From Bryoerythrophyllum caledonicum (lineage: Eukaryota; Streptophyta; Bryopsida; Pottiales; Pottiaceae), in the NCBI GenBank assembly GCA_963971425.1, contig OZ020520.1, forward strand, positions 26,440,724 to 26,504,723: 64,000 nucleotides of DNA. The letters are read 5' to 3'. The notes under the pieces were generated by a model that saw nothing but the letters and a program-made list of their open reading frames with translations, did no database searches and was not told where the DNA came from. Position 1 is the first letter of the stretch, and each line of letters opens with the position of its first letter. Shown in pieces: positions 6,186-63,474 of the stretch. Made by a program: the position numbers and the translations under genes.

Positions 6186-9100
6186 CTAACTGAGCTTTCC
6201 TAGCTCCATCTTCTTCTTGATTGCCCGGTGCCCATGGTAGATGAAAGAGTCAATAATGCCTGCTATTGTGTACACACCTGTACAACGAAAGACACTTTCA
6301 AAATCGGATAAACTCGAGACCAATCAGCAACCTGAGCTATGCGTAGAAAAGAAAACTTCTGTTCCATTACTTTTTTTCGATCGTCCATGTACTGGAGCTG
6401 CTTTCAGGAAGAATAATAAATGAATACTAGCCAAGAAATAGATTCTACATCTTCCTGCTGAAAACAGGAATGTTTAAACTAAGATAGCATACAGTACCTC
6501 CGACAATGGCACAAACGTTCGTCAGAAAATGCAGAAACGATGGTCTCCCTTCTGTGAATTTCACCTGCGATTGTGAACACCACATACAACAAATACTACC
6601 ATCAATAAAAGCCAACCGGAACAAATCGATACTGGATACAGTTATGATTTCCAGCCACAACCTCAGAAGTTCTGCCAGCAAGTGAAACCACACTAGCACA
6701 ACGAAAGTACGACATCCCACACAAACTCATCAATATTGTTTTTACTAAGTTTAGAAAATTGTAGAAATATGATTGGCCAGAATTTCAGATTGATCAGGTA
6801 CCTTGATGGGTGACAATTCGTAAAAGAAGAAAACACCAGGAACAACTCTCGAGTTGTCATGATCTCCATCTGTGTAGTGCTCCGTCACAGAAAACTGGAA
6901 AATACAAGTCCAATTGATGAGAATGGTAACAAGATGCTACAGAACAGCGCCTAACCTTAGAAAATGTAAAAACAAGCGCATACAGTGCAAGGAAGACAAT
7001 GACGAACCTGATTGGTTGATATTTTGTGGCCTCTAATGTCGGTGTACACTGTGGGCACCACCTGTCGAAATCCAAAGATAAAATTAGCATAAGAACAAAA
7101 TAAACTCATCGAATTACGACATGGTAAGTAAGTTATTCCCTAATACGCCAGTCAAACATCAAATTAGACCCAAACTGACGTAACGAAAGAACTCCAAGTT
7201 GATGAAAACGAGTAGAATAGGCACCTTGATGAAGTACTGGTACATGCCATTTTGATCCTTTTGTGTGCTTACCACCCTGTAAAGAGCAACCAGGTAGATC
7301 GAGTCTTTTAAGCGGAAGTGCGTGGAAACAACTACGCATCAAGTTTAGAGATCGTAACAATTAATGAGTAACGGTTCAGATAAAAACAGAAGAGAGTGTG
7401 GTGAACTTACTTGTCCAAAGGATTCACGGCTCCAGGAAAATGAGCACCAAAACTGAGCTCGTTAATGGTATGGCTCACCTGCAAGTGTAAGGATCCCAAA
7501 AACCAAATCAGGCACTTTGCTGGTGAGTTCTCAATTGGATTCATTGATCATGTTCAATGAAATTCTGAAGAGCAAACAACAATAATCAGTTCTCTATAAG
7601 CAAAATGTTACTGAGCGTAACACGTGCTTAAGCACTCTACATTGAACTGAAGTTTCCAGATAAAACCAATGTAATATTCCTAGAGAATGTTGAAGATATA
7701 ATTACATTGAAGCTGTCTGCTTTTAAACCCAGCAGGTCAAGAAGATGCATAGCTGATTGCTGAAACGATTTCCCTGGCGCAATGTGAAAATGTCCTGCCA
7801 CCTTGTTGACTTCCAGTTTTCCATAGATGTTACAACCCTCTCCAGCCTCCTCCTTTACTCTCTCAATGAAACCCTCTCTATGGCACTGAAACGACAGAAT
7901 AAGATCGAAACTCAGCAATAGGACAACAATTCAAGTCAATCAGAAATGGGCACTAAATACAAACGAAAAATGAAACCAGGCACCACCTACATTATTGACA
8001 TGAGTATAAAATATCACAACCATGAAACATCCATATTCAAAAATATATAGTTCAACTGTATCCAGCGTGCATAAACAACGTCAATATTCCAACCTGATCA
8101 ATAAGGTCCGTATTGCTCACGGCCCACCCCTTTTTGCGATAAGCTTCTCGCACCTCTTCACATGAGTTACAGCATTCATCATCAGACTGCAGCAGACCAC
8201 AAACCCCAGTTTGTATCAAACTTTGATCATACAAAATTCTATCATATGGGACAGACTGAGACTATATCTATTTTAGTATACCACCTTTCCATTTAACCAA
8301 TGCAAGCTTCTGAAGTTTCGAACCTCGCAATCTGTATACAAGGCGCTACTGGTAGCAAGTAGCCATATAAATTGTTCTCACCATAAACCGCTGATTAAGA
8401 ATACATTGCTTTCTAACATGCGAAGGAGATGGAATAAGAAGCTTACAGATTCTGCGCCAAAACAAGAACCGCAGTAGGTTTCATTGTGCTCAAGCCTTCC
8501 ACCATGCTTTTGCAACGGCTTTTGAACCTGCCATTGAGATGTCTCACAATCGGTCAACAGCATTATCCGCATGTCACAAATTTGTGGCGCACAAGGCATT
8601 CCGACTTGCTAGGCAGACACTTATCTCAATGCGAATAAACATATTCAAAAACAAGACGGAAAAGTTCTAAGCCACATCACTAAGATATAGATTCAATGGC
8701 TGACCTTGGGGGCGTTGATGGAATCCAGCTTTGGGCCATCAATAGCTTTGCCATGAATATCCAGCCTTTTCTTGTAGATATTGTGCCTCTGTACTCGCAT
8801 GAAATGAAGAGAATAAGAGTGACGGTAAACTGACTGATACTACGGTTAACTCGGTAAATAATAAGTAAACAAAGGATATGAATATCAACGACAGAAACGC
8901 AAATCTGAATACATGATTGAAACAGGCAATAGGCTGAGTAACATACCACATCGAGGTGCTGCTCACCGCTAATATCCATTGCATCTAAGCTGACAACCGA
9001 ACATGCCAATGCCGGGAACGTGAAGTCCAACTACAAAATCACAAAACCGCGCAACTTAAAAATTAAGCCTCAATTCACCGATCCACCACTTTGACAAACA

Positions 9101-26644: not shown

Positions 26645-28367
26645 CCAACAACGCTAGAATGTGAGCAGTGAGCGGTGAGCGGAGAGCAGTGAGACATTTT
26701 TGTAGGGAATATACTAAAATGGTAATATTCCTAAAATAATATTCCATTTTAACTAATAATAGTAACTTTTTAAATCTATAACCGTGGACTGTGAAATGTC
26801 TTTAGTAATAGTAATGTTCTAGATGGCCTCTTACATGACTGTACTTTTAGTCATTTAAATAATGTAAGATTAGATTTAGCACCAACTTCGGTACCAAAAT
26901 TCCTTTCTCCTCTTTTAAAGTGGATGATTTTTATTGGATGAAAAATATTCTGGATGTATAGACTTATAGATGAACAGATTCTGTGGATGAACAAAGTTTA
27001 GGCATGAACAAAGTTTATGGATGTGCATCGTTCAATTGACCCCTTACAAATTACCTTGATCTTCCAAAAAATTGAACTGCCATTCGTACAATATCTCTAT
27101 GATTAGGAAAATGGCATTATCATACGCAGTGATTTTGGTTGTTCAACCCAATAGTTAATTTTGCATGCTCTTTAGTGTTGTTTCATACACCCACTCTTTC
27201 AATAAGATACTATCTCATATGCTAAAAAACAACACACATGAACCTCCTCCCTCAAGTTGTTGTACTCATCGGCAATATGATAATGAAGTCCTCTAATGTT
27301 TATTGTAGCAACAACATTTAAGCTAGACAGTAGTCTAGAAAGCACCACCTACAGTCTTGTGATGCCAACCTCTCCGCAAACAAAATTCATCAATTCTACA
27401 TCCGACATCTTGCAACTTTTATAATATTATTAATAATATAATTGTGTTCAAAATTACTTAAAAGTTTGGAGTGCAAAATGGGCACTTTGGTACCGATTTT
27501 CCCCTCATTCAATTTATGTAAAGTTGTAGAAGCAAGAATTTTAGTGTTCAAAGTTACATAAAATTTTGGAGTGCCAAATGGGCACTTTGGTACCAAGGCG
27601 CCTTTTTTCCCCTCACTCAAATTGTAGTGAAAGCAAGAATTGTCAAATTATGTAAAATTGTAGTGGAAGCAAGAATTTTTGTATCAAATTTACGGAGAAG
27701 TTTGGAGTGCCAAATGGACAATTCGGATAATCCCTAAAAGAGAATTTTTCTTAATGGGCGACAATTTTTAATAATTTTTTTGTTTTGTTTTTGTTTTGTT
27801 TTATTTGGTTTCCCTTGGTTTTGCCCTCAAGGCACTCCTCGGTACCAAGGAGCATCTTGGCTGGTTTTTTTTAAAAAAAATTTCAAATTTTGTTTTATTT
27901 TTCCCTTAAGGCGCTCCTCGGTACCAAGGTGCCCCACGGCAGGTGGTTTTTTTTTTTTTTTTTTTTTGGTTTTGCCCTCAGGGCGCTCCTTGGTACGAAG
28001 GAGCCCCTCAGCTCGTTTTATTTTTTTATTTTTTTTACTAATATTTTAGAAGTTGCTATATTTTTTAAAACTATAAGCTGAGCAATCATTCATCTATCTA
28101 CATTCATCCATCTATCTACATTCATCCAAATATTTCTCTATATTTGGAAACTGTTAGGAGGATTTATTTCCGGATTTTTAAATCCAATTTTCTCCCATCT
28201 TGAATTTTTTTCATACCACGGAAATAGGTCACAATGTAAAATTGTTTCTTGTGAATCATCCCAAATCTGTGGTTATAGGGTGCCCAACTGAAAAAAATAA
28301 ATTGCTTATGGTTCACCGCTCACTGCTCATTGCTCAGTGCTCATTGCTCACATTCTAGCATTCCTGG
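26645..28367. mobile_element. non-autonomous hAT element (1.7 kb) with 8-bp target duplication
   Basis: The two ends are inverted copies. The left begins CCAACAACGCTAGAATGTGA and continues with GTGAGC repeats. The right, read inverted, begins CCAGGAATGCTAGAATGTGA with the same repeats. Flanks are TTCGAGAG (26637-26644) and TTGGAGAG (28368-28375), an 8-bp duplication with one mismatch, which is the hAT hallmark. The interior has no transposase. The right 220 bp match the left end of the larger element at 54931, and both carry the CTCCTCGGTACC palindromes. The spurious ORFs inside come from poly(T) tracts. Confidence 0.8.
27820..28010. repeat. three palindromic GGTACC-centred motifs in the 1.7-kb hAT element
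   Basis: Motifs at about 27834-27853, 27913-27933 and 27980-28003 share CTCCTCGGTACC with AAGGAGC or AAGGTGC, and alternate with poly(T) tracts. They match the cleaner palindromes at 55608, 55696 and 55840. Two further TTGGTACC motifs occur at about 27487 and 27587. Confidence 0.7.
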
Positions 28368-31276: not shown

Positions 31277-33829
31277 ATTCTAGTGGATACTATTACAATT
31301 AGAGTTACAACCAATGTTTCATCAAGAACCAAATTAAATTCTCACAACATACTTCAACAAATGTGCAGACATTTTGGATGACGCTGTTTCCACACTTGAA
31401 TGTTCCACTTTGTTGAACAACTGGAACTCTGATGTACTTGGGCACGTTGTGGGACATCAGTCCGCACAAACCCTACCATGAGTTGTGAACCAACTTCGCG
31501 AACTGGAGGTTATCCTCGTTAGGTATGAGTCCGGAACAACCGAGGGAGTCCATGTCGTAGGTCGCCTCTCAATCAAAGATGTAGAGAGACCAATGCATGT
31601 CCTTCTAGTAAGGAACCACAACAACGACGAGACTGTGTGAGCGGTCCGAGAGGGACCAAGCTATTTTGCGTGCCTAATTTTGCGAGCCTCGAGGTACAAG
31701 CCTAGGAATGGGAGCCTTGTTGACAAAAATTGAGTTCTTAATTTGAAAAAGGCATTAAAAAGTAAAAGTTTTAAGGTTTTTTTAGAATGACATTGGTCAA
31801 ATGCATTAAATCAATGGACCTATTACCGTGGGGGAGGGTGGAGAAATTGTATGCAAGAAGGATCTTAAAATGATAATATTGTTGATTTTTCTTTTTAAAA
31901 ATGGACTTATGACTGTGGAGTCTAGGGTTCTTTAATGAAGGGAAGATAGGATTTCCGAGGTTGTAAAGCTTTGGAGCATGATTTAGTATATAAGAAAAGA
32001 CAGTGAGAGGACAAAGTGGTGGGAGGAAGGTTTTAGAATTTAGAGAGTGGTAGTGGTTCTAGGAATCTGGGGATTGGAGGGGGTGGGAATAGTGCGATTT
32101 AAGGAGACGACAAGTACAGTTTGGAAGGTTTTAGAGACGGAGCGTTGAGGACAGTGAGAGTAGAACACCTGAAAATATTGGTCGAATTTAGGGTAGTGTA
32201 AAACTGTAGATTTAGAGTTAGGATTAGCGGCCTAGAGGGCTCGGGAGAGTCCAATAGCAAGAGGCAAGATTTGGAGATAGATGATTCAATTTGGTGGATG
32301 ATGACCTAAACACGGTAAATTTGAGAGATTTAAAAGGTGTATTGGTGGTAAAGCTAGTGCGAGGGAGAGCAAATGATTTAGAGTATGGAAGTATTGGTAG
32401 AGGAGAAATAGTAAGTGTTTAGAACCAAAGATAAAGGAGAAAAGTGGGGAGATATGAAGGATAGTTAGGGACAGTTTGCGAACCCAGAATGTAGTTTTTG
32501 GAACTGGAAAAATTAGAAAGAATCTTGGAGGGGGACATTGAAAGAGTGAGATATTAAACTCGATCGACTTTTATATACTTGCAAGGGAAGTGTAAATCTC
32601 CAATCTCAGACTCCCTTTGTCTCGTCATTTTCACGAAGTATAGACTCAGGAGTGATGGACAAGAACTAGTACAAACGGTGGAAGTGGCCTTTTTAGTCTC
32701 ACCGCCTTTTATGTAGAAGTTGGAATGACACAATACAAGGTCAAAGTACTATGAATGACAGCCATGCACTATAGTGTTTAAGGAGAAAAATCTATAAATT
32801 TTGCTTAATGTCATTCCAGTAGAAACTAGATGTGTGAATGAACAGATATACCTCGAGATCTAAACCACAGACAATTTTGAAGATGTAACATAAGTAGTAA
32901 TAGTAAGCCCATGCACTCTTTTTGCCAAGTGACTTTTTAGACATCTTTGTATAGGTTGGGCTATTGCAGTTTAGAAACTAGGTGATCGTCAACAAACACC
33001 TAGAAACCTTGGATATGTTTCAAGACTCAAAAGTCACAATACAACCTAGGATTGGAGTCGGTATTACTAGAATCATGCAGATTTTCCCAATCACGTAGAG
33101 AACAAATGAGCAACTGTTATGGTGTATAGTAAATAAAAGCAGATGGATTTCTTTCCGAATCTCTTCGTTGGGTGGTCTACAAGTTTGGAAGGGGCAAGAT
33201 AATCGTTGATGTTCACGGATACGCCTTCTTCGAACAACTTTTGAGGGGACAATGCCTTACGCTCAGTGCGACAAAACTTGACGCTTTTGAGGGCAAATAT
33301 CTCCATCCTACTCTAGTTTGTTCCCATCTCAACTGGCCTGAAGTCTGGGATATGTAGCTTAGATTGGATCCACCTTTGCCATGTGCCCATACACAACAAT
33401 GAATGTTCTTGTTGCAAAAGAAAAATTCCATTCTTTCCATTCTCAATTTCTTGAAATTGTCCATCAGTCCCGTGCATGTTGAGCAGATGTACTTCTTCCG
33501 TGCTGCACAATCCTGCCCACACACTACTTCCTCACCTGCCGATAGAGAAAATCATGCTTTACTGGATGTCTTAGAAAGCCTTCCAATGTGCCATTGCTTC
33601 TCATCACAGACAGTCTCTTGCACAACTTTGACGTGCTGAATCGGTAAATAAGCGGCAGGTGACATCAATGGAAGTATTTCAATTGCTTCAGGAGAGTAAG
33701 TAGAGTGCGGTGGCCGCTCTTCAATTGTTAGATAAAAAATCATTGGATCAATACGACAAGCCTTTATCATTAAGCGTGATGCACTTATTTTGTCGGGGTG
33801 ATGCTAGTCAAATTCTAATCCTGGAAAAG

Positions 33830-34842
33830 AAATTGTTTTTCTTTTTAGAAATACAAATACTTCCTCACCTTCTTAGTGAAGACTGCAGGTACAGAACTCG
33901 TCTGCACCGAGCATGTTGGCGAGTGCAGCATGATTTCCAGAGCGTTGAATGATGTGATAGGCAATACAAAGAGTGAGTTAATCCTTCCTAAGATGGTTGC
34001 CTAGTTTTTTCACCTTTCAGATATTGGTAATAGGCAACAATCCGTATGCATACCCAGATCATATCATCCATAGCCGCAACATACATATCATAATTTTTTT
34101 CTTGAGTGTTGGAACCACTTGTTGTGCACCAATTCCATCAAAATATATGACGACATCTTGACCTCTTAGAATAGCTTCCGATAGATCATTTGATGAATAA
34201 TTATGGTTAGTACAATATTTGGCATGGCGAACTGATTGAAGAACTTAGGATACAAAATATTGCTAGTAGCGGCATAAGGTAGTATAATTAGATAAGTATG
34301 ACAACCGCCAAAAGAAAGTGCCGATGTTGGCACTCCTTCAAGAGTGACCACTAGCAATGAATAATGTAGTACTAACAGCGGGATGCCCAAACCGAGTCTA
34401 CTCTAAAGTAATATTGATGTCAGCATCTCGTTGTTGAATCTTGATGTCGGACATCAATTCTCTGAGATTCGGATTTGAATTGTCATGCCTACTTGAAACT
34501 GCATTGCATCATCTCCACAACACTTGTTGAAATACCACATTTTTGAGTACATATCAAAAACCGCAATTGTCATCACGGGACAATAAATAGAGTTGTACAC
34601 ATAGCAGCCATAGTGGTCCAAGACTTGACACTTTTGATATGGTTAAACATCGTCCGCATATCCTCTAAGTCATCTCCAAGTTGCATAGTCTTAATTAAAT
34701 CAACCCTGATTTCAAGTTCTACCTCCGCCATCTTGAAGATGAAAACATTATTGTCAATTGGCCTCATCGCTTGTCTTCGGAAACGCTTCTCCTGAATGAA
34801 GGCCCAATTATTAAAGCTTCTCAGTTTTATAATGTTGGCCAT
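33830..34842 (-). pseudogene. MULE-like transposase relic (copy 2 of the family at 52.3 kb)
   Basis: Reading down from 34842, fragments align in order with the plus-strand copy at 52.3-54.9 kb: NWAFIQEKRF, FIFKMAEVELEIRVDL, MFNHIKSVKSWTTMAA, and much later YDMYVAAMDDM and VAYYQYLKGEK. Stops and frameshifts are frequent. Only the segment 34573-34842 is an uninterrupted frame (89 codons). It supplies the transposase evidence for the enclosing inverted-repeat element. Confidence 0.6.
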
Positions 34843-35024
34843 TACTTCAAAACAATACCGATATCTAGAAGTGGTTATCTCATTTCAAATACTAGGATAG
34901 AACATTTGCTTGAACTTGACCAAGACAAGGACAAGTTCATCATAAGCAAGGGTCTTCTCAAGAATATTTTTTGGACATAAAAATAATTTCCGAGGTAATC
35001 CTTGCACACTCCTACCACTATGGA

Positions 35025-39568: not shown

Positions 39569-41560
39569 TCAGTCTTCACTAGGCGGACCAAAATCACCCA
39601 CCATGACGACGACCCTGCTCCACACAGCGTGCACTCCATCGAACCATCTCACCCTCCCGTAGCTCTGATGCCCTTCCGGGTACGAAGGGAAAAGTGGCAC
39701 CACTGTCAAGGTGAAGGGCCGGATGACCCCGGCCCTGCTGAATGTGAGAGTGGGCGGCGTGATTCTGATCTCGAATCCCGCCGGTGCCTCAGTCACCCCG
39801 GCGGTGTAAGTACGCGCGATCCGACCGCTCTCGACGTTCGTCAGTTTTCTGGCAAAGCTCATGGACCGTGGCGAGAGGGCCGACCCAGCGTTTCTGAAGT
39901 TGGCCACGAAACTGGGCAGATTGGCGTCTTGGATTCGAGCGGGCGGATTCACGGGGCAGTTTATCCTGGCGACCGGATCGATGATCCGGATGGTGGTGGT
40001 GCTGTAGCCCAATCCACACATCAACAGCAAGTAGTCGGTGCTGCTCATGTCGTAGACGAGTCCCGGGTACTTCGCTCTCTCGGGCAGAGCGAATCCAGCG
40101 CCTAACGCCCACGGCGTTGCCCTAAGCGTCGGTTCGTCTTGGGTGGTGATGTGATTGCCGACGTTGTTGAATATTGTGGCCGTGGTCATCAAGGCGGATT
40201 TGATGGCGGCGGGGCTCCAGTCTCGATGGAAGGAGCGTAGCAATGCGGCGTAGCCGCTTATGTGGGGGCAAGCCATGGATGTGCCCGACCTGAAGACAAA
40301 TGGGTCTGAAGCATTCTTACCAGCTGCGAGGATCTGGACGCCAGGTGCGGCTATGTCAGGCTTCAGCCATTGCCCGCGAGCGCTGAGGACGGGCCCTCGC
40401 GAAGAGGATTCAGCCACCTGCGGCGCTGCGATCGTCCCGAACAGAGTAGTACCGTTTGAAAATACCCTCCGGTCCTGCGTGGTGGATGCGACGGTAGTGT
40501 ACCACGGTGCCACATTGCTGATGGATGCTATGTCAGGACCGTTGTTCCCTCCGCCGACAGAAACAAAGATACCTCGCTTGACAGCATTGTAAGCCGCAAT
40601 GACATGACCGCTGCCCTCACCAAAGATACCTTGGACGCCGGTGGTCTGGTTTATGGGTGAACCAATTGAGTAAGAGATTACGTCAACGCCATCTTTTATA
40701 GCATCCTCGTATGCTTGTATAAAGTTGGAGGTCGGGCCGTACGCCCTGTTGTCGCGCGGATCATTCCACAACACCTTGTAGACCGCGATTCTGGCACTGG
40801 GTGCCAAACCTCGGGCCGTTCCTCTGGCACCTCCATTATAGTTCATGGCATTTGCGACCGGTCGCCCTGCAGCAATGGAAGCTGTATGCGATCCATGCCC
40901 ATTGACATCTCTTGGTGATAGGAACTCGCCCTTCTTACCGTTGTTGACGCCGGGATAAAACCTTGCGCCAACGATCTTTCTGTTGCAACTGGCAGCAGTG
41001 AAGCCTGGTCCTGTTTGGCATATACCCTTCCATTTCGCTGGAATAGGACCCAGCCCCATGTCGTCGAAGCTCAAGCTCTGGGGCCAGATTCCGCTGTCGA
41101 AAACGCCGATGATCACATCCGCTCCAAAGTTGGTGGCCCGCCAGAGGCGGCTATCTGGACGCGTCAGGCTCACAAAATCTGGGCTGCGGGTGGTGTGGCT
41201 CTCGTGGATTCTGTCCGGGGACACACTCAACACGCACGGGAGCGTCCTCATGTAGGCTGCTTGCTCGTCTGTGAGACGCGCCGCAAATCCGTTGAAGGCG
41301 TGGTGGTAGACGTGGTGGAGGCAATCCTCACCGTCATCGGGGTGGTCGTGTGCCAGGATCTGCTTGGCGCCGTCCATGAGCTCCGTGTACCATGCCCGTT
41401 TGTCCATGACGTCCATGTGCGTAGCATTCTTCACGGAGATGATGTACACTTTACTTCCCAGGGGCGCACCACTCACCGGACTGGAAATCAGGGACAGGAA
41501 CAACAAAGCCAAAAGAGCCAGGCATCCCGGTAAAAGCAGGAACTTGGAAGAGCACACCAT
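39569..41560 (-). CDS. secreted subtilisin-like serine protease (plant subtilase) lacking the PA domain
   Basis: Intronless, 663 aa. It has a signal peptide of about 31 residues (hydrophobic LLLPGCLALLALLFLSLI) and an I9 propeptide (VYIISVKNATHMDV to about residue 120). The peptidase S8 domain has Asp155 in GVFDSGIWP, His222 in NGHGSHTASIAAG, the oxyanion Asn in VGGGNNGPD (about 339) and Ser428 in SGTSMACPHISG. A C-terminal Fn3-like domain follows (about 545-655). Between the Asn and Ser blocks, typical plant subtilases carry a PA insert of more than 100 residues. Here FSNGTTLFG runs almost straight into APQVAESSSRGP, so the PA domain is missing, which explains the short length. All catalytic residues are kept, so it may be active, probably in the apoplast. 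It is the only intact host-like gene in the transposon tract. Confidence 0.95.
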   Translation of the reverse strand: MVCSSKFLLLPGCLALLALLFLSLISSPVSGAPLGSKVYIISVKNATHMDVMDKRAWYTELMDGAKQILAHDHPDDGEDCLHHVYHHAFNGFAARLTDEQAAYMRTLPCVLSVSPDRIHESHTTRSPDFVSLTRPDSRLWRATNFGADVIIGVFDSGIWPQSLSFDDMGLGPIPAKWKGICQTGPGFTAASCNRKIVGARFYPGVNNGKKGEFLSPRDVNGHGSHTASIAAGRPVANAMNYNGGARGTARGLAPSARIAVYKVLWNDPRDNRAYGPTSNFIQAYEDAIKDGVDVISYSIGSPINQTTGVQGIFGEGSGHVIAAYNAVKRGIFVSVGGGNNGPDIASISNVAPWYTTVASTTQDRRVFSNGTTLFGTIAAPQVAESSSRGPVLSARGQWLKPDIAAPGVQILAAGKNASDPFVFRSGTSMACPHISGYAALLRSFHRDWSPAAIKSALMTTATIFNNVGNHITTQDEPTLRATPWALGAGFALPERAKYPGLVYDMSSTDYLLLMCGLGYSTTTIRIIDPVARINCPVNPPARIQDANLPSFVANFRNAGSALSPRSMSFARKLTNVESGRIARTYTAGVTEAPAGFEIRITPPTLTFSRAGVIRPFTLTVVPLFPSYPEGHQSYGRVRWFDGVHAVWSRVVVMVGDFGPPSED

Positions 41561-42532
41561 CTTCAGTCAGCACCGATCTTGTGCTCGCACACAAGATGAG
41601 CTTAACTGAGTGTCGTTTCTCTCTACTTTGCCAAATATCTAGCATGCAAGATCTAGAATATCTATATAATCTCCCACTGCTTGAAATGATAGGAGTAGAC
41701 TACTGCATCGAATTGCTATTGAATACACTTCTCTAAAGCACCGAATCCACTCCGAATAACATCGTGGGAAGCACCATTCAATCTGATTTAATGCGTCAGG
41801 TTCAATCCAGTGAATGTTCTGCACTATCCAGCCTACTGTCTAGAACGCTGGATCACCTCGTATGATATTGCTCAAGGAACTCGAAGAGATAGTATGCCGA
41901 TTAAGAAACGCGTCTACATCGAAATTGCTGAAACTGTGATGGTGTGATGAGCAGGTGTTAGTTCTGGTTTAATAGCTAGCTTATCCTTGACTAGTTTCGA
42001 GAAAGGAATAATAATTGCCGAATCTTAGAAATAATGAATCCTAAAAGTCATGAACAAGCCTACAGAGTGGTACAAGCACTCTAGAATGGGACGGATGGAC
42101 TTGAAGGCTTAAAAGAAATCCAAACGAATCAGGCTTTTGATTCTTTCTCACCCAAATTTCAGAGGCTTGCATGTCTCCAATATCCTCTGGAAATATGCCC
42201 TCATCCTTGTCTTTTTGCCTCCTCCATGGCGCTTGCCTCCACCATCTCTCTAGGCTCCAAGTCCTGAACGACCTCCACGACATTATCCTCTTCCATACTA
42301 GTTACGTTCTCCATGACTTTATCCAACTCCAAGTCTGTGGAAGACATTGGACTAAAACTTGGCTGCCTTTCCTGAAAAATAAATAAACGCAAAAGAAAAT
42401 AATCAACCACTATTTGGCAAGCATCTAAGGTCACTCAAACAAAACTCAAACATGGTCACTTAAACATTCAGTTCCAGGTCGAAGATTAGGACGAGTTGAT
42501 AGTCGTAGATTTCGATCATCATTGTGAGAGGG
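41561..42532. other. 5' region of the subtilase gene and spacer
   Basis: Contains the presumed promoter of the minus-strand subtilase (immediately above 41560). I see no other gene or recognisable element up to the first TCTCGGCACCGAGA motif at about 42533. Confidence 0.4.
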
Positions 42533-52305: not shown

Positions 52306-54930
52306 ATGGTTGCTACGCACGATGAGATTGATGGAGATGTCGTTGTCTATGGTCCCGGTCCAGGGGTACCAATTTCATTTGCGGTTGGTCAAGAAGGCAT
52401 CTCCTTTGTTTCTGCTAGTCGTCTACGTTTTTGTTTTGATATCCTTGAGGTTATAATGCATGTGGATAAGGAAGTCTTTGATATAGTCACCGGGGAAATG
52501 ACTCATACCGTAGCTCAGACTTGTACAACCGAAGACGATGGACTTGTATGGTTGTTAAAGCCAGGGAAATATAGAGTGTATGGTCTAAAAGATAGCAGCA
52601 TCCGTGCCTCTCTTGATTCTCTGCCTCCTAAACTGTCGTCAACTTCTTCGCAAGTTTCTCTTCCTCTTCATAAAGTGAAACAGGAACCCATTGACACTTG
52701 TATTCATGTACTTAGTGACGACTCGAATAGTGATTGTCTCCTACAATCTACGAGCATTTCAAGAGCTCCCTCCTCAACAACACCAATGTCTTCTCAGTCC
52801 AGTCGTCCTTCGTCTTCAAAGCCTCCCCTACCTCCTTCCACCTCCAATAGCATCGTCGATTGCATACGAGAACTTAGTTCCCGACGGAGATCCAAGTCTC
52901 ATCTCAGTAAAGTAGACTTTGATTCCATCAGAATGAAAAAGGTAGGTTTTCTCCCCCCCTCCTTCAATGGTGACATTATTTTTGAACTACCCCCAGTCGG
53001 AAAGACTAACTCCTCCTCTCAAGCCAGACTACTACAAGGTATGGACAAGAGGCACGATGGTCATGCCTGGTCTTGTACCATAACATCTCATATCAGAAAC
53101 GAGTCGAACTTGTTGTTCCGAATTTCTAGATGCCTTGGACATCTCCAGTGTATGAATTCTGAGTGCGAGTATCTGTAACGGGTCCATTGTACGTCCACCG
53201 CTAACGAAACTGAATGGAACGGTTTTTGTCCCAATCCCTTTGATGTTCGTAGTTCTCCTCCTCCGCTATCCACTCTAGTTTGTAGCACCTGTCAATACCC
53301 CCCTATATGTTTAAACACATGCATGGCAATAATTTAATATGCCTTTGGCCATGACCAAATGACTCGTGCATGTGTCCATTTGGGAACACATGATCACCCA
53401 GTAAAACTAGGGATGTGTAGAGAGTTATCCGTTAAGCTCCGTTGCCTCATTGGAGAGCAGGTAGAACGGACTCCAACTGCAACAAATTCTGCCATAGTTC
53501 TTGAGGCTAGCAAGGAGTTTCAAGGAGAATTGATACTCTGTTCTAAAGGCGTTCCTCAAAAGACTCTTCCATTTGAAGAGCTTATACTTGTGCTGGATAA
53601 GTTCAAGCAGATGACGTCCCCAAGTATTCGCAATGAGGTCACTACGTTCAGGTATTTGAGACGTTTTGGTGAAATGGACAGCATTACCAGATTGAGGGGG
53701 GCTTCCAATTGGGCCTTCGTTCTGGAGAACAAGTTTCCTGGTTAAGGGACAGACTCCGATAAGGTATGCTTATTCAAGATGGCCGAAGTAGGACCAAGGA
53801 ACAGTGTGGACCTAGTACGACGTATGCAACCACAGAGCGACCTTGGAGACGCTTGGATCATGTTTGATCACGTGAAACGAGTGAAGGACTGGACAACTAT
53901 GGCATGCCATGTCTATGACTCAACATATTGCCGTGTGATGACGATTGCAATTTGTGACATGCAGTCTCAAGATGTAGCAGCACATCTAATATTTTGGCAG
54001 AATCTCAATGCAGTGGCAGCTAGGCATGGTATCAATGACGTCATGTTTAAGGGCTTTATGGCGGACAGTGCTCAAGCAAACTGGAATGCAGTCCGCATTA
54101 CGTACATCATGGGGATGCAAAGAAGGCCATGGATAATCGAGAGTGCACATGTCTATTCCACTGGGCATAGTCTCTCGAAAAACATACAAAAGCGGATATT
54201 CGAGCGGACCTCCAAGAACAACACCAACAACTTTGCAAGCAATACAAGAATGCCAAGACACTCGAGGAGGCAGACACTAAGAATACAACTATCAAATCAT
54301 GGTGGTTGTCATGAGGAACAACAACAGATGAAGGAGTTGTTCGTTTAGACCTTTGGCTCGCGTTTTGGCATTTCCGATATAGATAGTGGGGAGGCTTTAT
54401 GGAACTTGTAAGTTCTTTCTTGACATTACTACATTTGAATGAGCATGTTTTGGCAAGCCCCTCTTCTTAAGGGTGTGGTTATTTATCTAAGGGTTCAACT
54501 GACTATATGTTTCCTAAGCTCATAGTATTTACGTGTCTTCCTACAGGCTCTTTCTAAAGAACTTCTGCAGGCTCTTTCTGAAGCAGAATTGGCTCAAATG
54601 CCATCGTGCAACCTTGCAGAATTCGTACACAATAAATGGTTACAACAATCAATGAAAAGAGGTACAAATCTCTACGTGGCAGCTATTGATGATATGGTTC
54701 ATGCTTTCATGTAAGTGGTTGCATACTATCAATTCTTGAAGGGTGAGAAGCCAGGTACGGGACCGGGAAAGGATGAACTCCGACTTCGAACTGCTCAACG
54801 TACCACTCATCGCTCGGGTAACTCCAAGGTTCTACATGAGGCCCTCGAAAAAATGCCTGGAGGTAATGAGTTCTGCACTGGCGATCCTCATTTAGAGGGA
54901 GAAGAGGGTTTTATGTCATTGAAGCAAAAG
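52306..54930 (+). pseudogene. MULE-like DDE transposase pseudogene
   Basis: The N-terminal frame (52306-53178) has a Ser-rich linker and a Cys/His segment (HAWSCTITSH, CLGHLQCMNSECEYL). The middle (53359-53745 and 53779 onward) has FKMAEVGPRNSVDLV, HVYDSTYCRVMTIAICDM (candidate first Asp), and FKGFMADSAQANWNAV (candidate second Asp). After a frameshift near 54100 come CTCLFHWA, LAFWHFRYR and NLAEFVHNKWLQQS, then DDMVHAFM and VAYYQFLKGEKPG. Stops at 53176, near 54164 and at 54712 replace probable Gln or Arg codons. Ordering fits MULE-type transposases, but the superfamily call is by motif recall. The hAT element at 54931 truncates its 3' end. Confidence 0.6.
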
Positions 54931-55603
54931 GCAGGAATGCTAGAATGTGAGCAGTGAGCGGTGAGCAGTGAGCAGTAAGCATTTTTTTTTTCAGTTGGAC
55001 ACCCTAAAACCACAGGTTAGGGGTGATTGACAAGAAACAATTATACATTGTGACCTATTTCCGTGGTGTGAAAAAGTTCAAAATGGGAGGAAATTGAATT
55101 AATAAATCCGGATATTTAGATGAATGTAGATAGATGGATGAATGTAGATAGATGAATGTAGATGAATGATTGCTCACCTTATAGTTAAAAATATATAACA
55201 ACATATAAAATATTAGTAAAACCTTTTTAGTCTCATTCAGAGCTAAGCAACTACATCGAATGCAATAATTTCTTCATGTGATTTCAACAATGATATTGGC
55301 GATCTGTAGCACCTTTTGGGTCAAGCCTTTGACTTTTGGTCGGAGCTAATGGTTGGAGCAAATGGGGTACATAGTGGTAGAAATATGCTAAAGTCAAAAC
55401 ACACTTTGAATTTAATTCAAAAGTGATTCGATTTTTATTAGAAAAACATGAAATCACTTGGGTTGAGAAAAAAACGTGAAGTTCTTTCACTAAAAAATAT
55501 CTTAGGAATACTTCAGTTTTTAATATGCCATTTTCTTTAAAGTGGTGGTCATGGGCCCATAACTTGACTATGATGGAAATTGAAAAAATTTCAATTACCA
55601 GCG

Positions 55604-55862
55604 GAGGGGCTCCTCGGTACCGAGGAGTGCCTTCAAGGCGAAACCAAAAAAAAAAAGAACCGCACGAGGAAAAAAAAAAAAAAACCACATGCCAAGGGGC
55701 TCCTCGGTACCGAGGAGCGCCATGATGGATGGATGAATATGGATGAATAAGGATGAAAGTGGTCGAACGACTCTGATGGATTGACAAAAAAAACCAATAA
55801 TAATTATGAATAACAGAAGACAAACATCATAAGATTAGAGGCTCCGCGGTACCGAGGAGCCT
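55604..55862. repeat. three CTCCTCGGTACCGAGGAG palindromes
   Basis: Perfect or near-perfect 18-22 bp palindromes at 55608-55629, 55696-55720 and 55839-55861 (the last with CTCCGCGG). The first two flank poly(A) tracts. They lie 0.65-0.95 kb inside the hAT left terminus and match the decayed set at 27.8-28.0 kb. Confidence 0.85.
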
Positions 55863-56317
55863 TTGTGAACGTAATCGAAAAAACTTAAGTGATTAGGATA
55901 AAAAATAAGTGAACCAATAAAAAATAGCTCAACATATTTAATGAAGTAGTACAATAAAGTCATTTACAATTGTGTTTTCAATTGCATTACAAACTGGACA
56001 TAACCTATGAGAAATCGTAATACAAATACAAGAAAATGAATAAACTAGTACATGATGAGGCACATTGAATTGAACACATAGATACAACGTAATGTAGTAT
56101 TAGAATATAAAAATCCACCAAAACGGTATTTGGTGACGAGGGAATAAAGATCAACTGGATAATGTTTTGAAGCGAATACATAGTATTCACAAATATTCAA
56201 ATTCTAAAGCATAATACAAATGTGAGACAAATAGAGTAGACAAGGCAAATAAAAACTTAAGTAGTGGCCCTTTTCGTCTCACCACATGGATTAAATAACG
56301 GCATACAATGAATAAAG

Positions 56318-59300
56318 TCAACGCTTTGAAACACATATGGAACCATTAACACCTACTAAAGAAGCGTCAGAAGAAGTAGCACCAGAATGGCTTTCACTGC
56401 TACCACTGCTCGTAACATCCAAAGCCTCTTCAGCCTCATAGTCCATGTATCTACTAACCTGTGGGTCATATTTAGGTAATTTAGTGATTTGGGTAGAAGT
56501 ATCCTCGTTCGTAAGATTGATGGCCATTGCCTCAATGTAGCACGGTAAGGACATCGCACTTGGAGGACTAGGAAAGAGGTCTACCAACCTGCAAAAAGTA
56601 AAAATAATGAAAGTAGCTTAACAGATAGATTACAATGAAATAAATTTAGATGAAAGAAAGGATAGAACTTACGTACACATGCGATTCTTGGGAATCCTCT
56701 TTTGAGGTCTTCCCTCGGGTGGGGCTTCTTCAGAAGCTGGCACCTTCCGTTTCTTTCCTCCAGAGTTATCTTCTGAAGACTTCGAAGAACAGAGAGGAAC
56801 TAGAACGGCCTCTACGATTTCGGCGTTTGACTAAAGGGCAATGAGGTGACGAATGCTTCGACGATCGGCATGAACGCTAGCGCCTAGAAATACACAAACA
56901 TGAAGTATAAAGGACTTTGCAAACTTATGGAATTTGGGAAAAAAAATTCAATCGAAAGATATCGAGGGTGATGATAGAACCTGTTGATGCAGTACAGTCC
57001 AAAACAACATTCCCAGGTTTGGAAAAACTTTGAAGTAGCAATTGCACAAGAATAGGGCACTTCTCACGTGGTCCTCTCCACATCTTATCTCCAATCTTCA
57101 AAGCGGTATTTTGTGTAGTATAGTTAGAAAGAACACCCGCCCCAACAATATCAATGCCCAAATTATTCAATTCTTGGTTAACTTCAATGCAGAAGTTCGA
57201 ATTGGCAGGCATGTCATTGAAAGAGTCCCTCACATATAGAATGATCCAAATCGCTTACTCTGAATAAACAAAAAATATAGTAAACGTTAAAAAATACATA
57301 TTGGTTTAGAAATACATGTCCACATGCAGAAATTTGAAGAATACATGATGACCAAGTAAGCATATAATTAATCTCAACTTAGCCAATCGTAAAATATACA
57401 CCACAAATTAATAAACTTTTGAGATTAAAATGTAAGTCCTCAATATTAGGCAAAAAATTGAGAAAAAATGCCGTTTAACAAATCATACCGTCCAAATAGG
57501 ACTTTTGAATGAAGTGAGTGGCATCTCGTTGATACCCCACCAATCAAACAAAGCAGTGAAACCATAAGCTTCGGCAAACGAATCTGTTGTAGTTCGAACG
57601 TCTGGAAGATCATGGTGATATAACATGATAGCCCCATCATCTTGGAGTGTGTCACGAGCCACTTCAAAGATGGATTCCGCCCAATCCTTGTGCAAAACAT
57701 TCCATGACGGGACAGTCAATCCCATACTTGGGATTGGAGGTCCATCAGGCATATCTGCCATGATAAGATCAAAACAAGCTTCTCTTTTAGGCATACCACC
57801 AAGGCGATGTTGTTGACCTTGACCAACCTATTAAGAAAATATACTACAGACAAATATCATTAGAGTAGGACCTCAGAAATGAAATATGGAAAATTCTGTG
57901 ATGTAGTTGGAAACATAATAGAGTCATAGGATCAAACCTTCTGAGCAAATGACAAAAGTTCCTTGAACGAAGGGAAGGCTCCCGCTTCTTGAACATGTGA
58001 TCCATAATGGTAGGAATTGAAGTATTCAATAGAAGGACTTTGGCATCAACTCCATGTGTGTCAGTGCGTTTAACAATCTTCTCGTAAAGTTAAGAGGGCG
58101 CACAAATTTTAGTGGACATGGATAGCAATTCCGTAAGGCAATGTGTTGGATTACTCAACGTGCCAGGGTTGATGGTGGCAATAGATATAGTTTCTGAAGC
58201 ACTTACCAGAACAACTGCTTCCTTTTCACCCATGTTTTTTGAACTACTTACCTTGGACTCTTTGGTCTCTTTTGCACTCTTTGACGCCTTTGAGCCTTTG
58301 GTCTCCTTGCCATTCTTGGTTGTCTTCTTTGTTTGTACCTCGGATGGGGCATCCATAGATTTGTCTTCATCAGAATCCTCATCATGCGCTTGAATTGAGG
58401 CGGTTTGTTTTGCTTTTTCACCTTCCTCCTTGCTCGGGACAAACTTCTTGGAGCATTCCAAGTACCATGGACACGCGTCAAGCTCCTCCATACTGAAAAC
58501 ATGAGTTTGACCGGGTATAAACATATACGAGTCTTTTAAAGTCGTCTCCGTCCAAGCTCCAAATAATTTAGGAAAGGTCTTCTTGTCGATTGCATTCTTC
58601 CTAAGAAGCTCCCTCTTGAAATATCTAGAATGTAGAGAATGTAAAACTTAAGATAAGCATATTACAATTTTTGTTACTGTAATATAGTGGTATCTTGCTT
58701 CCAATACTACTCCACCAAAACCATGGAAAGGTCGCGTGCGAGATTCCATATAATAACCCAAGTAATCCCTAATATGATGACGGCCATGTTCATTCAGTCC
58801 GACAAGGGCTGAACTAATGACCACTACAACTAGTTTCTATACTCACTAAGGACGCCTCCTCGATCCCGAGGGAAAAAAAGAGTATCAAGTAAAAAAAGAA
58901 AATACTTACCGGTATTGAAGACGCATCATAGCAATTTTAGTTCCTTCTTGAGAAGCAAACGGTTTTGAACGAGAGTATCCTCCTGCCTTCCGGAATAAGA
59001 AATAGAATGTTTGATCCCATAGTATGATGCGCCACTTTTCGATGTAGTCTTCAATTTTGTCCACATCATCTCTTGCTCTCAGTCAATTACGATGTGCCCT
59101 CATGTCATAGTGTCTTTGACAGCTTCCACAGTGGCAAACTCCAACTACGAATTTGAAACCATTAGAATATCAAGAACTATGATTCTGACACTCAATAATT
59201 CTTAAGGCTTAATAAGAGTACAAAAAGATGTTTTCTTCATACACTCACCTCTGCCTAGAAGGCTGCCTTGACCAACCATGCTTCAAGTTTTTCATCTGTA

Positions 59301-59965
59301 ACACCAACCGCTGGGAAACGGAGAGCTACGCGATTCAAGTCTCTGGAGTTCCACCAATTCAACCACTTTACTTTGAACGCGGGTTCAACAGATGATGATG
59401 AGATCTTCTGAAGCTTCTCTATCGACGTCTCCGGCTTTCAAAGTGACTCCAATGATAGTTAATCTGAAATTCAAATAAAAAGGTCCAACTTAGAATAATG
59501 GAATACAATTCATAACATGTTGAAGAAAAAATTACATACCCCTTCAAGAAACTTTGGCCCCTGTTTGGGATTGGCAATCGAAACCATCTTGTCAAACTCT
59601 GTCCTGTAGGACTTCACTTTTGCGTTGGAAGCACTGTTCATTGCTGCGTGAATGCCCCGTGCATTTTGTTCTGCCTTCTCAGTCTTCTCCAAGTATAATT
59701 TTGCTGCCTCATCCGCTGCAACAGATACCTCTTGCTGTAAAGCTGAAGACAATGATTAGGATAAAAAAAATAAATGTAAACACTTCATCTTCACGAGTGC
59801 AAAAATAATACTTACTCTGTTTAAAAATTTGATGAACACATCCGATGTCAATGAATACCAAGGATAGGGCTTTTGGCGAGTCTTGCACGCAATGTATTCA
59901 TCTGGAGTCAATAGGTCTTTAAAATCCGGTAACTTTAAAACACCATAAAACACCATATTCAACAT
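56318..59965 (-). pseudogene. beta-class DNA N6-adenine/N4-cytosine methyltransferase-like gene with C-terminal NLS
   Basis: Exons on the minus strand. The best-defined are 57827-57489, about 57253-56981, 56883-56673 and 56588-56318; the last three join in phase. Motif IV region: CFDLIMADMPDGPP, then SIFEVARDTLQDDGAIMLY and FDWWGINEMPLTS. Motif X/I region: REKCPILVQLLLQSF, then SKPGNVVLDCTASTG, continued across an intron by ASVHADRRSIRHLIAL. The order IV then X-I is that of beta-class (CcrM/HinfI-like, N6_N4_Mtase) enzymes. An SV40-like basic patch, GGKKRKVPAS, with RPQKRIPKNR nearby follows. Upstream exons (59965-58090) give an uncharacterised N-terminal part with a Lys/Ser-rich linker. In-frame stops (TAG at 56831-56833, TAG at 59255-59257, and others) and one unresolved junction (57489 to 57253) suggest a decayed copy. 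MT-A70 is an alternative but lacks this GxG-type motif I. Confidence 0.7.
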
Positions 59966-60543
59966 ATTGGGAGATTTCCAGGACTTTGAAAGGTATGAAT
60001 GGTTTTCTCAATAGTAATTATTTGTGCACATTTAGCTCGACTCGAGCTGAATATGTACCCATATTGAACATAATGGAAAAATTTCATAGTGTAAATTCAT
60101 TAAACATTTGCATGTTTAGGTCGACTCAAGCTTCACGTAATATTTTGGGAGGCTCCCAATCTCCCAATATAATGAATATGGTGTTATAAGTATTAATTTG
60201 ATGCAGTTTGTGCACAAGGTTAGTCTTTATGTGGGCATTTTCAGCGGATCTGCATAAAGATGCGAATGAAGTAAGAATTTTAGAACCGACTCATCTTAGA
60301 CATATTAAATAACATATAATTCAATGTTCAAACCTGTTCACATCATTAGGGTTGTCTACATAGACGGACAGGGGCCCAAAGACAGCGGACGGACGGACAG
60401 TAGGACGGACGGACAGGACGGACAGCACTTTTTGGCGGACAGTTGCGTGTAAAAAAAAATTACAAATCCTAAATCTAATTTTCAACTTACCCCCTGGTAC
60501 AACACGTGTACACGACACGTCAGACGACATTCCACGTCACATC

Positions 60544-60870
60544 AAGGGGCGGGCGCGTGCCTTCAGACCGCGCGCGCAGCATTTGGGGCCGGGCGCGTAC
60601 CAATCTGGACCGGGCGCGTTCATGTAGGGCCGGACGCGTTCCAATTAGGGCCGGACGCGTACGATTTAGGGCCGGGCGAGTGCATACATGGCCGGGCGCA
60701 TACCCCTAAGGGCCTCGCACGTGCATTTCAGGGCCGGGCGCGTACCGTCAAGGTCGGGCGCGTACCGTTAGGGGCCGGGCCCGCAGCGTCACGGGCCTGG
60801 CGCGTTCCATTGTAGGTCGCGCGCGCACCTGCCTATCGGCCGCGCCCGATTAGGGGCCGTGCGCGCGCGA
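60544..60870 (+). repeat. GGCCGGGCGCG repeat array, first block
   Basis: About 12-14 degenerate units of 25-32 bp, each starting GGGCCGGGCGCGT followed by a variable 12-18 bp AT-containing spacer. It lies downstream (3') of the hAT transposase ORFs, between them and the methyltransferase gene. Confidence 0.85.
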
Positions 60871-61125: not shown

Positions 61126-62611
61126 TCATTGTGTTTTCGCTTTTCGTTTTGATCGGCGAACATTTTGGGGAAGAGAAAGCCCACGAAGCACCACCGTATT
61201 GTCGCCAGGTACCTCATCGCAATCCTCATCGTCTCCATCATCGCCCGATGATGAGAAGTTCTCCGCTGCATTTTCCAAGACTGGTGCCACGTACTCCTCA
61301 ATCTCTGAGGCCAAGTTTCGTAATTGTAGCTCGGCTCCAGTAGTTGATGCGGCATTCACAAGTCGTTTTATTCGGATATTCTTCCTTTTCTCTGTTACTC
61401 CATCCATGTTTTTGGAGTGGTTGCCTTTGGCCCCAATGACTCTCTCCGAGGTTCCACTTCGCCAAGGTCCCGTGAAGAAAGGGAGAGTACCATTGTTCTC
61501 GCCCCTCCGTGTCCCAAAATGGCTGCTCATAGTAGAGGACCCAACCCTCGCGGAGGGAAGTTGTGGGGTTAGTATTGCACGCTCCACACCACCATTTGGG
61601 CCGAGTGCGCTACGGTGGACGGGTGGCCGAACTATTGTTGAAGAGGTCTTTTTCTTTACACGTAAAAGAGTTCTTCCGATCGATGCGGTACTTTGATCAC
61701 GGGGCCACCGAAACAAATCTTGTAGTGGCATGTCTTCCTCTGAGTCCGGTTCTATTGCTTGAGGCAAAACCGGAGAGCTTCTCACAACTTCAATGGACCC
61801 CGTGGTGGCCATTGGCTCATGGGATTCATTATTGTTTCCACCACTGCTCACTTCGTTCCATCGTGAGGAAATGTATCGTTTGCTGCAATGCCAATGCCAT
61901 GACCGTTGAGTTCAGGGCCATCGCCACTAGAAGGGTCCGAGGCGCTAGAGCCGTTTGAGTTGGGAGACTGATTCTCCGAGATGTTGTCATCTCCATCAAG
62001 ATTGCCCCCCAATGCCGACCCATCTTCGTCTGCCCTAGCTTCTTTGGCACGGTCTTCACCCGATAATTCTACTATGGTATGGACTGCCGCTCCGTCGACA
62101 TCATCAAACACAAAAGGATCCACTGGGTCACTGTGGACGTTGTGAAAATGGTCATGTAGTGCATCTCCACCGTGCTCGTTGTTTGCAGAGTTGTCCCTAG
62201 GTGGGCTATGATCAGACACGGGGTTGTTGTCACCGGCAAGGTCTTCCCAATCGCCGCCCATCCAGTTATAACCCTCATCATCCGACTCCAAACCCTCGTC
62301 CTCTGTGTTTGAAGGAAGTCCCCCATCTGGATCAGACTCCTCCGAATGCACATTCTCCTCATACCATCGAATCGGGTCTGGACGAGCACGTTCTCGGAGC
62401 AATCGACTATTCGTGTAGATGTAAACCAAATCTTCCGCTTTCTGCACTCCCAAGCGATTTTGGCTCTTACTATGCACGAACGAATACATGCTCCAATTAC
62501 GCTCACATGACGAGGCCGAGCAGGTTTGTGCTAGTATATGCTTCGCAATGATAGGCAATGATTGCCCGCCCACGCGGTTCCACCATTGGTGAGGCAAGAG
62601 GTTGTTGTTTT
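61126..62611 (-). pseudogene. hAT transposase C-terminal part (hATC dimerisation domain) plus acidic and basic tail
   Basis: The frame from 62611 down to 61848 contains WWNRVGGQSLPIIAKHILAQ, TCSASSCERNWSMYSFVHSK and NRLGVQKAEDLVYIYTNSRL, the diagnostic hATC block, followed by a long Asp/Glu-rich region. The frame stops at 61848, but a GTGAGC donor-like site just before it could splice to the 241-codon frame at 61851-61126. That frame ends in a basic patch (VRRSKRKAKTQ) and includes EKRKNIRIKRL. The catalytic DDE part would lie upstream, in or beyond the assembly gap. It could be intact; I mark it as a pseudogene because the N-terminal part is not visible and neighbours are decayed. Confidence 0.75.
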
Positions 62612-62811
62612 NNNNNNNNNNNNNNNNNNNNNNNNNNNNNNNNNNNNNNNNNNNNNNNNNNNNNNNNNNNNNNNNNNNNNNNNNNNNNNNNNNNNNNNNN
62701 NNNNNNNNNNNNNNNNNNNNNNNNNNNNNNNNNNNNNNNNNNNNNNNNNNNNNNNNNNNNNNNNNNNNNNNNNNNNNNNNNNNNNNNNNNNNNNNNNNNN
62801 NNNNNNNNNNN
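62612..62811. other. assembly gap (200 N)
   Basis: Exactly 200 Ns, a typical fixed-size scaffold gap, so the true length is unknown. It sits at the edge of the GGCCGGGCGCG array and removes part of the hAT gene, probably because the GC-rich repeat could not be assembled. Confidence 0.99.
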
Positions 62812-63285
62812 TGTGAGGCCGGGCGCGCGCGAATAGGGGCCGGGCGTGTGCATTTTGGGGCCGGGCGTGCACTCTTTGGGGCCGGGCGCGCGCGAATGGG
62901 GGCCTGGCGCGTACGAATAGTGACAGTGCGCGCGCGAATGGTGACCGGGTGCGTGCGCTCTGAGGCCGGGCGCGCGCAAATAGTGGCTGGGCACGTGCGC
63001 TGTGGGGCCGGGCGCGTGCCTTTTGAGGCCGGGCGTGCACTCTTTGGGGCCGGGCGCGCGCGAATGGGGGCCTGGCGCGTACGAATAGTGACAGTGCGGG
63101 CACGAATGGAGACCGGGCGCGCTTGAACAGTGGCCGGGCGCGTGCGCTGTGGGGCCGGGTGCGCGCGAATGGGGGCCTGGCGCGTACGAATAGTGACAGT
63201 GCGCGCACGAATGGAGACCGGGCGCGCTTGAACAGTGGCCGGGCGCGTGCGCTGTGGAGCCGGGTGCGCGCGAACAGGGACCGTG
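62812..63285 (+). repeat. GGCCGGGCGCG repeat array, second block
   Basis: About 15-17 units of 27-32 bp with the same GGCCGGGCGCG core as 60544-60870. A higher-order unit (GTGCACTCTTTGGGGCCGGG onward, through GGCCTGGCGCGTACGAATAG and GTGACAGTGCG) is repeated two to three times at about 62870, 63040 and 63160, so the block has grown by local duplication. Open frames across it are compositional artefacts. Confidence 0.9.
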
Positions 63286-63474
63286 GAAAGTTCCTATCTT
63301 GCAGACCGAATTATCTTCAAACTAATTTCAATGTTTCAAAAGAGATGCAAGAATTCGGTCAATGCTTTAAAGATGTCCTTATATTTATATTGCACATGGA
63401 AATTTCGCAACATACAAAATGGTTACAAATGCTACGCTTTCATCTTGCATTCTATTTGCATGTACTCCACTTCA

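Follow-up and report, generated by a model that had tools for sequence, protein, structure and literature searches.

The window analyzed here spans 64 kb of contig C8 in the genome of the moss Bryoerythrophyllum caledonicum. Its minus strand carries a copy of a split, methylase-like gene, which lies within a 5'-truncated copy of a Mutator-like DNA transposon together with several copies of an 18-bp palindrome (Table 1). An initial annotation had described a beta-class methyltransferase gene at 56318..59965 and assigned it to a hAT element. The peptides it quoted are present there on the minus strand, but the interval proved too narrow, as the element begins at 54932 and exon 2 of the gene reaches ∼60249. 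In blastn comparisons with 20 loci of the same 437-Mb genome, homology extended over 54948-60347; past 60347, the only match was that of the window to itself.

In the window, this multi-copy gene is present as a decayed pseudogene. Exon 1 is missing, and the codons that could be compared contain four in-frame stops. When the seven open reading frame (ORF) pieces of this copy were submitted to Pfam singly, no methylase match was obtained. The methylase assignment of the window gene is therefore based on a spliced relative, L023, which does match.

Table 1. Features of the window. Exon borders of the window copy were set by eye from homology to the exons of L023.
Feature	Position	Strand	Remarks
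5'-truncated copy of Mutator-like element	54932..60347	- (gene orientation)	Right terminus 54932; nothing of the left part past 60347
Right terminal inverted repeat	54932..54952	+	CAGGAATGCTAGAATGTGAGC, then GTGAGC(A/G) 7-bp repeats
Palindrome, exact	55610..55627	.	CTCCTCGGTACCGAGGAG
Palindrome, exact	55700..55717	.	CTCCTCGGTACCGAGGAG
Palindrome	55842..55859	.	1 mismatch
Exon 10	56318..56588	-	C-terminal tail; homology to L023 exons
Exon 9	56673..56883	-	Completes motif I, then a stretch like motif II and the KKRKV patch; IAL is followed by an in-frame stop
Exon 8	56981..57259	-	Motif X; motif I begins here (VVLDCTASTG)
Exon 7	57489..57827	-	Motif IV position (LIMADMPDGPP)
Exon 6	57938..58624	-	Lys-rich linker; one in-frame stop
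Palindrome, degenerate	58856..58873	.	≤4 mismatches; intron 5 of methylase-like gene
Exon 5	58910..59144	-	One in-frame stop
Exon 4	59249..59463	-	In-frame stop close to its end
Exon 3	59540..59734	-	
Exon 2	59815..60249	-	Split by inserted segment 59949-60185
Insertion resembling a miniature inverted-repeat transposable element	59949..60185	.	Inverted-repeat ends; not in any of the 12 loci aligning on both its sides
Short element of same terminal-repeat family	26645..28366	.	Without methylase-like gene; palindromes at 27835, 27914, and 27986; flanks GTTCGAGAG / GTTGGAGAG

The methylase-like gene family

A DNA search of the genome with the window gene returned 61 matches. Nine other copies match it at 90-93% identity across almost all of the 3.7 kb, in introns as well as exons, and a second subfamily shows ∼70-76% identity. 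Twenty loci from among the 61 matches, picked from the best ones and from the second subfamily, were fetched for comparison (L009 to L028, with L020 being the window locus); three of them, L023, L024, and L025, are near-identical in sequence. L023, which belongs to the second subfamily, has 10 exons that join in frame across GT-AG junctions with no internal stop and encode a protein of 1106 amino acids. The in-phase junctions around motif I and the eukaryotic introns described for the window gene are borne out in this copy.

The whole L023 protein matches PF01555 (N6_N4_Mtase) with an E value of 5.4e-7 and a score of 30.2 bits, above the gathering cutoff of 26.7 bits, and its methylase domain alone scores 35.8 bits. 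By sequence, the best solved relative is CcrM, with E values of 0.0011 for L023 alone and 7.8e-6 for a four-row profile. We conclude that the C-terminal part of this accessory protein descends from a beta-class amino-methyltransferase with the permuted motif order IV...X-I, as initially annotated. The basic patch, a putative nuclear localization signal, reads KKRKV in the window copy, as reported, and KKRKE in L023.

A protein search with the full-length sequence gave no match among the 7992 candidates sharing most words with it, all of which were scored, and a search with the methylase part alone gave two matches. P0001, a relative from another source, is 64% identical and has DMPDG at motif IV. 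Viral contigs scanned with the methylase part contained no relatives of it, and a viral origin was rejected. The residues IWDGNHRFQ provided a lead to an N-terminal ParB domain, which was likewise rejected after no ParB match was found in Pfam, PHROGs, or PDB sequences.

For estimates of the ratio of nonsynonymous to synonymous substitution rates (dN/dS), each copy was aligned codon by codon with L023, and positions with local identity of <0.34 were masked; in-frame stops were counted, frameshifts were not. Comparison of L023 with four copies of the other subfamily gave a dN/dS of 0.10-0.12 for the whole protein and 0.11-0.14 for the methylase part. Within subfamilies, values were higher (0.26-0.52 in seven pairs, and up to 0.81 in the methylase part), and the recent pair L009-L012, with few changes, gave 1.41, all of which fits copies that decay once inserted. 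The thirteenth pair, L023-L030, was saturated. Five of the 20 loci (L010, L021, L023, L024, and L025) have no stop in the codons covered, and the other 15 contain in-frame stops. Taken together, the accessory gene was under purifying selection between subfamilies before the present copies decayed.

The element and its palindromes

A full copy of the element on contig C9 is ∼14.8 kb long, with a transposase gene on one strand and the 10-exon accessory gene on the other. Its inverted terminal repeats are built partly of 7-bp GTGAGCA-like repeats; by eye, CAACGACGCTAGAATGTGAGC and CAGGAATGCTAGAATGTGAGC are alike at 17/21 positions. The right terminal repeat was recovered at 18/20 methylase-bearing loci, being degenerate at L019 and outside the stretch fetched for L016. 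Homologues of the gene are thus not confined to single-copy host genes, and its placement in a DNA transposon beside palindromes stands, although the transposon is not of the hAT type.

Both ends were read for four elements, which have target-site duplications of 10 bp exact (c9), 9 bp exact (c3b), 9/10 (L022), and 8/9 (the short element in the window). Mutator-like elements (MULEs) are described as having target duplications of 8-11 bp and terminal inverted repeats that are commonly hundreds of base pairs long (PMC6446971). The present elements show duplications in this range and inverted terminal repeats that are shorter. No transposase match was found in Pfam for the 705-aa and 463-aa ORFs, for pieces of them, or for pieces of the relative P0003. 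Because no MULE or Mutator profile matched, we describe the element as Mutator-like in build and do not place it as a member of that superfamily. The predicted model of a relative of the transposase resembles the IS256 and Hermes enzymes, and the transposase is probably of the DDE type. Two further assignments were rejected: a SWIM finger at the transposase C terminus, seen by eye and without a Pfam match, and a third gene at 6499-6867 of c9, which is unsupported (dN/dS of 0.95 versus c12).

A degraded transposase gene at 52366-54939 (plus strand) in the window is 42-53% identical to the transposase of the C9 element. Because the right end of the methylase-bearing element at 54932 abuts this gene, one of the elements was probably inserted into the transposase gene of a relative. 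At 32804-34998 (minus strand), a transposase of this type survives as a further decayed remnant (28-55% identity). The window also contains an open, subtilase-like ORF of 665 aa at 39569-41566 (minus strand), with Peptidase_S8, Inhibitor_I9, and fn3_6 domains.

The palindrome CTCCTCGGTACCGAGGAG occurs at 128 exact sites in the genome, a minority of which were examined in context, and the reversed pattern, used as a control, occurs at none. With ≤4 mismatches allowed, the C9 element contains 8 sites, and none of 20 Markov shuffles contains one. At the same tolerance, no site was found in 21.5 kb of flanks or in the 56.7 kb of the window outside its two elements, short margins beside the elements being left out; one window site has 5 mismatches. 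Some of the C9 sites lie past the 3' end of the transposase gene; the others are placed around or within the methylase-like gene, in a tandem array upstream of it, in intron 5, and on its downstream side. All of those with ≤5 mismatches (10/10) are non-coding by the approximate exon borders of this one element. A site in intron 5 is also present in L023 and c9, in which exons were mapped, and c3b, c12, L021, and L027 each have one at the corresponding position. The repeat units around the palindrome are unlike between copies and the core is constant; in a set of 42-mers picked by palindrome similarity, the conservation of the core is due in part to that choice.

Copies lacking the methylase-like gene have retained palindromes, too. 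We examined the first six palindrome clusters, in list order on contig C1, that lie away from methylase copies (L032 to L037). All six proved to be internally deleted derivatives of the element. In each, 5-13 palindromes accompany the right terminal repeat and the terminal part of the transposase gene; their left ends fall outside the stretches fetched. The short element at 26645-28366 of the window is another of this kind.

Catalytic motifs and a second methylase-derived family

CcrM and other beta-class N6-adenine methylases have DPPY at motif IV. The accessory protein shares their domain order and motif X-I/II region but differs from them in its long extra N-terminal regions and at motif IV, where 18/20 loci read DMPDG or DMPNG (the two exceptions, L026 and L027, are decayed in this stretch). 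The canonical active motif, [DNS]PP[YFW], is thus replaced by DMP[D/N], without the aromatic residue, and the matches of PF01555 and CcrM to L023 begin only past motif IV. Motif I reads DC[T/N]ASTG in 13/20 loci, with most of the sequence that follows it conserved. Because of the motif IV sequence, catalysis is doubtful, and the protein has probably lost most or all methylase activity.

A distant paralogue (∼36% identity) at 6395-7224 of L030, beside the C3 copy L012, has DLKD at motif IV. A whole-genome search with PF01555, in which 150/235 candidates were scored, revealed eight further places above the cutoff; the window's own family, being split exon by exon, was not in the resulting list. 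Given an equal 153-aa open frame and similar scores, these eight places apparently constitute one second family. PF01555 was also matched in 11/14 control genomes. One of the eight, L038 (C9:14277300-14281300), is 24-35% identical to L023 and retains the aromatic residue in its motif IV, DQPF. The 4 kb examined at L038 contain neither the 18-bp palindrome nor the terminal repeat of the methylase-bearing element. We infer that the series DQPF, DLKD, and DMP[D/N] may reflect graded loss of the catalytic motif, which would fit a drift from writer to reader.

Bdelloid rotifers have a comparable eukaryotic gene, N4CMT, which contains introns and whose N6_N4_Mtase domain is permuted (PMC8885841). 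N4CMT is described as having been captured from bacteria, as retaining an active SPPY motif, and as marking transposons, whereas the gene described here lies within a transposon and reads DMP[D/N]. Conversion of SPPY to APPA, which changes both Ser and Tyr, is reported to have abolished N4CMT activity (PMC8885841). Elsewhere among plants, an N4-methylcytosine (4mC) methylase is reportedly present in a liverwort; our literature search did not bring it up.

Proposed palindrome binding and alternative explanations

Beta-class methylases can act as dimers. The reading that we favor, tentatively and at slightly less than an even chance, is that the methylase-derived accessory protein reads the palindrome and thereby protects or mobilizes the element. 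The protein, perhaps dimeric, would bind the 18-bp palindrome, and this binding would shield the element from silencing or aid its mobilization in the manner of VANC of VANDAL elements. The palindromes may thus be landing sites of the methylase-derived protein. VANC of Arabidopsis is reported to bind a short motif that recurs in tandem-repeat arrays of non-coding DNA and introns and to induce loss of DNA methylation (PMC5735166). As in VANDAL21/Hiun (PMC5735166 and PMC10398659), a DNA transposon here carries a second gene as well as a short motif that recurs across non-coding DNA and introns, set in tandem repeats that change rapidly. The two systems differ in their proteins and sites. VANC is described as combining DUF1985 and DUF287, neither of which was detected in the Pfam scan of the 1106-aa accessory protein (PF01555 only), and as recognizing YAGTATTAY (PMC5735166 and PMC10398659) in place of an 18-bp palindrome. 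An anti-silencing role for the accessory protein is an analogy drawn from this anatomy.

Alternatively, the transposase could bind the palindromes as subterminal sites, with the methylase-like protein serving as a transposition helper unrelated to silencing. MuDR is a Mutator-type element with a second, non-transposase gene, mudrB, which is not known to be methylase-derived and may act as a transposition helper. All six derivatives without the methylase-like gene keep the subterminal sequence of both sides along with their palindromes, as transposase-binding sites would predict. However, sites also occur ∼4-7 kb from the nearer end, in the upstream array and in intron 5, and such distant sites are not typical of transposases. 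We regard this explanation as unlikely, though not strikingly so.

The initial annotation proposed that the element marks its own DNA with N6-methyladenine (6mA) or 4mC. An active writer acting on the palindromes, which have a GGTACC core, would be consistent with a methylase domain above the Pfam cutoff, purifying selection between subfamilies, the retention of motif I and the stretch following it, the aromatic residue in the L038 family, and an 18-bp palindrome suited to a symmetric enzyme. This proposal is weakened by the sequence DMP[D/N] at motif IV, found in P0001 as well as in 18/20 loci, by the position of the PF01555 and CcrM matches, and by the inactivity of the bdelloid APPA mutant. 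We therefore consider self-marking improbable.

Still less probable is a host gene captured in Pack-MULE style, without function for the element. MULEs are noted for acquiring host gene fragments (PMC6446971), and in-frame stops in most of the loci would suit such cargo. Yet a whole multi-exon gene is kept in two subfamilies at a dN/dS of ∼0.1, relatives with the same motifs occur in other sources, and no single-copy host parent turned up, although no whole-genome protein search was made. Finally, residence of the methylase gene in a hAT element, suggested by a hAT-dimerization ORF 1.5 kb away, has next to no likelihood, as that ORF (61848-63293) lies outside the element, past the point where homology to the other 19 loci stops, is common to none of them, and is accompanied neither by a hAT transposase between the termini nor by 8-bp duplications, the elements having a different transposase and duplications of 9-10 bp. 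This ORF, on the minus strand, overlaps an array of GGCCGGGCGCGT-like 21-bp repeats at 62796-63320, and similar repeats form another array at 60541-60826.

Transposons with an accessory protein and cognate sites are known; the one described here has a methylase-derived accessory protein and its own repeated sites. A literature search on methylases in Mutator-like or other eukaryotic transposons, covering titles and abstract openings, retrieved no such gene. SET is a protein-methyltransferase fold and not a DNA amino-methylase. MULE-Phytophthora_1, from oomycete hosts, is a Mutator-like element with this methyltransferase-type domain (PMC6446971); the main text of that survey uses the word "methyltransferase" 0 times, and its table gives the SET domain in one oomycete group.

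Transposons known to carry their own protection against silencing are few. It is possible, if rather doubtful, that a bacterial-type methyltransferase taken in by this transposon lineage has ceased to act as a writer and become a sequence-specific reader, which docks on the palindromes of its element and opposes silencing; this would by analogy represent a second independent VANC-like system, built on a methylase fold. If so, the gene-less copies with multiplied palindromes would be parasites on that protection. A methylase-derived gene under selection, together with a palindrome at 128 exact places, provides a test case for the repeated origin of anti-silencing systems and for how a DNA-modifying enzyme could become a DNA-binding protein.
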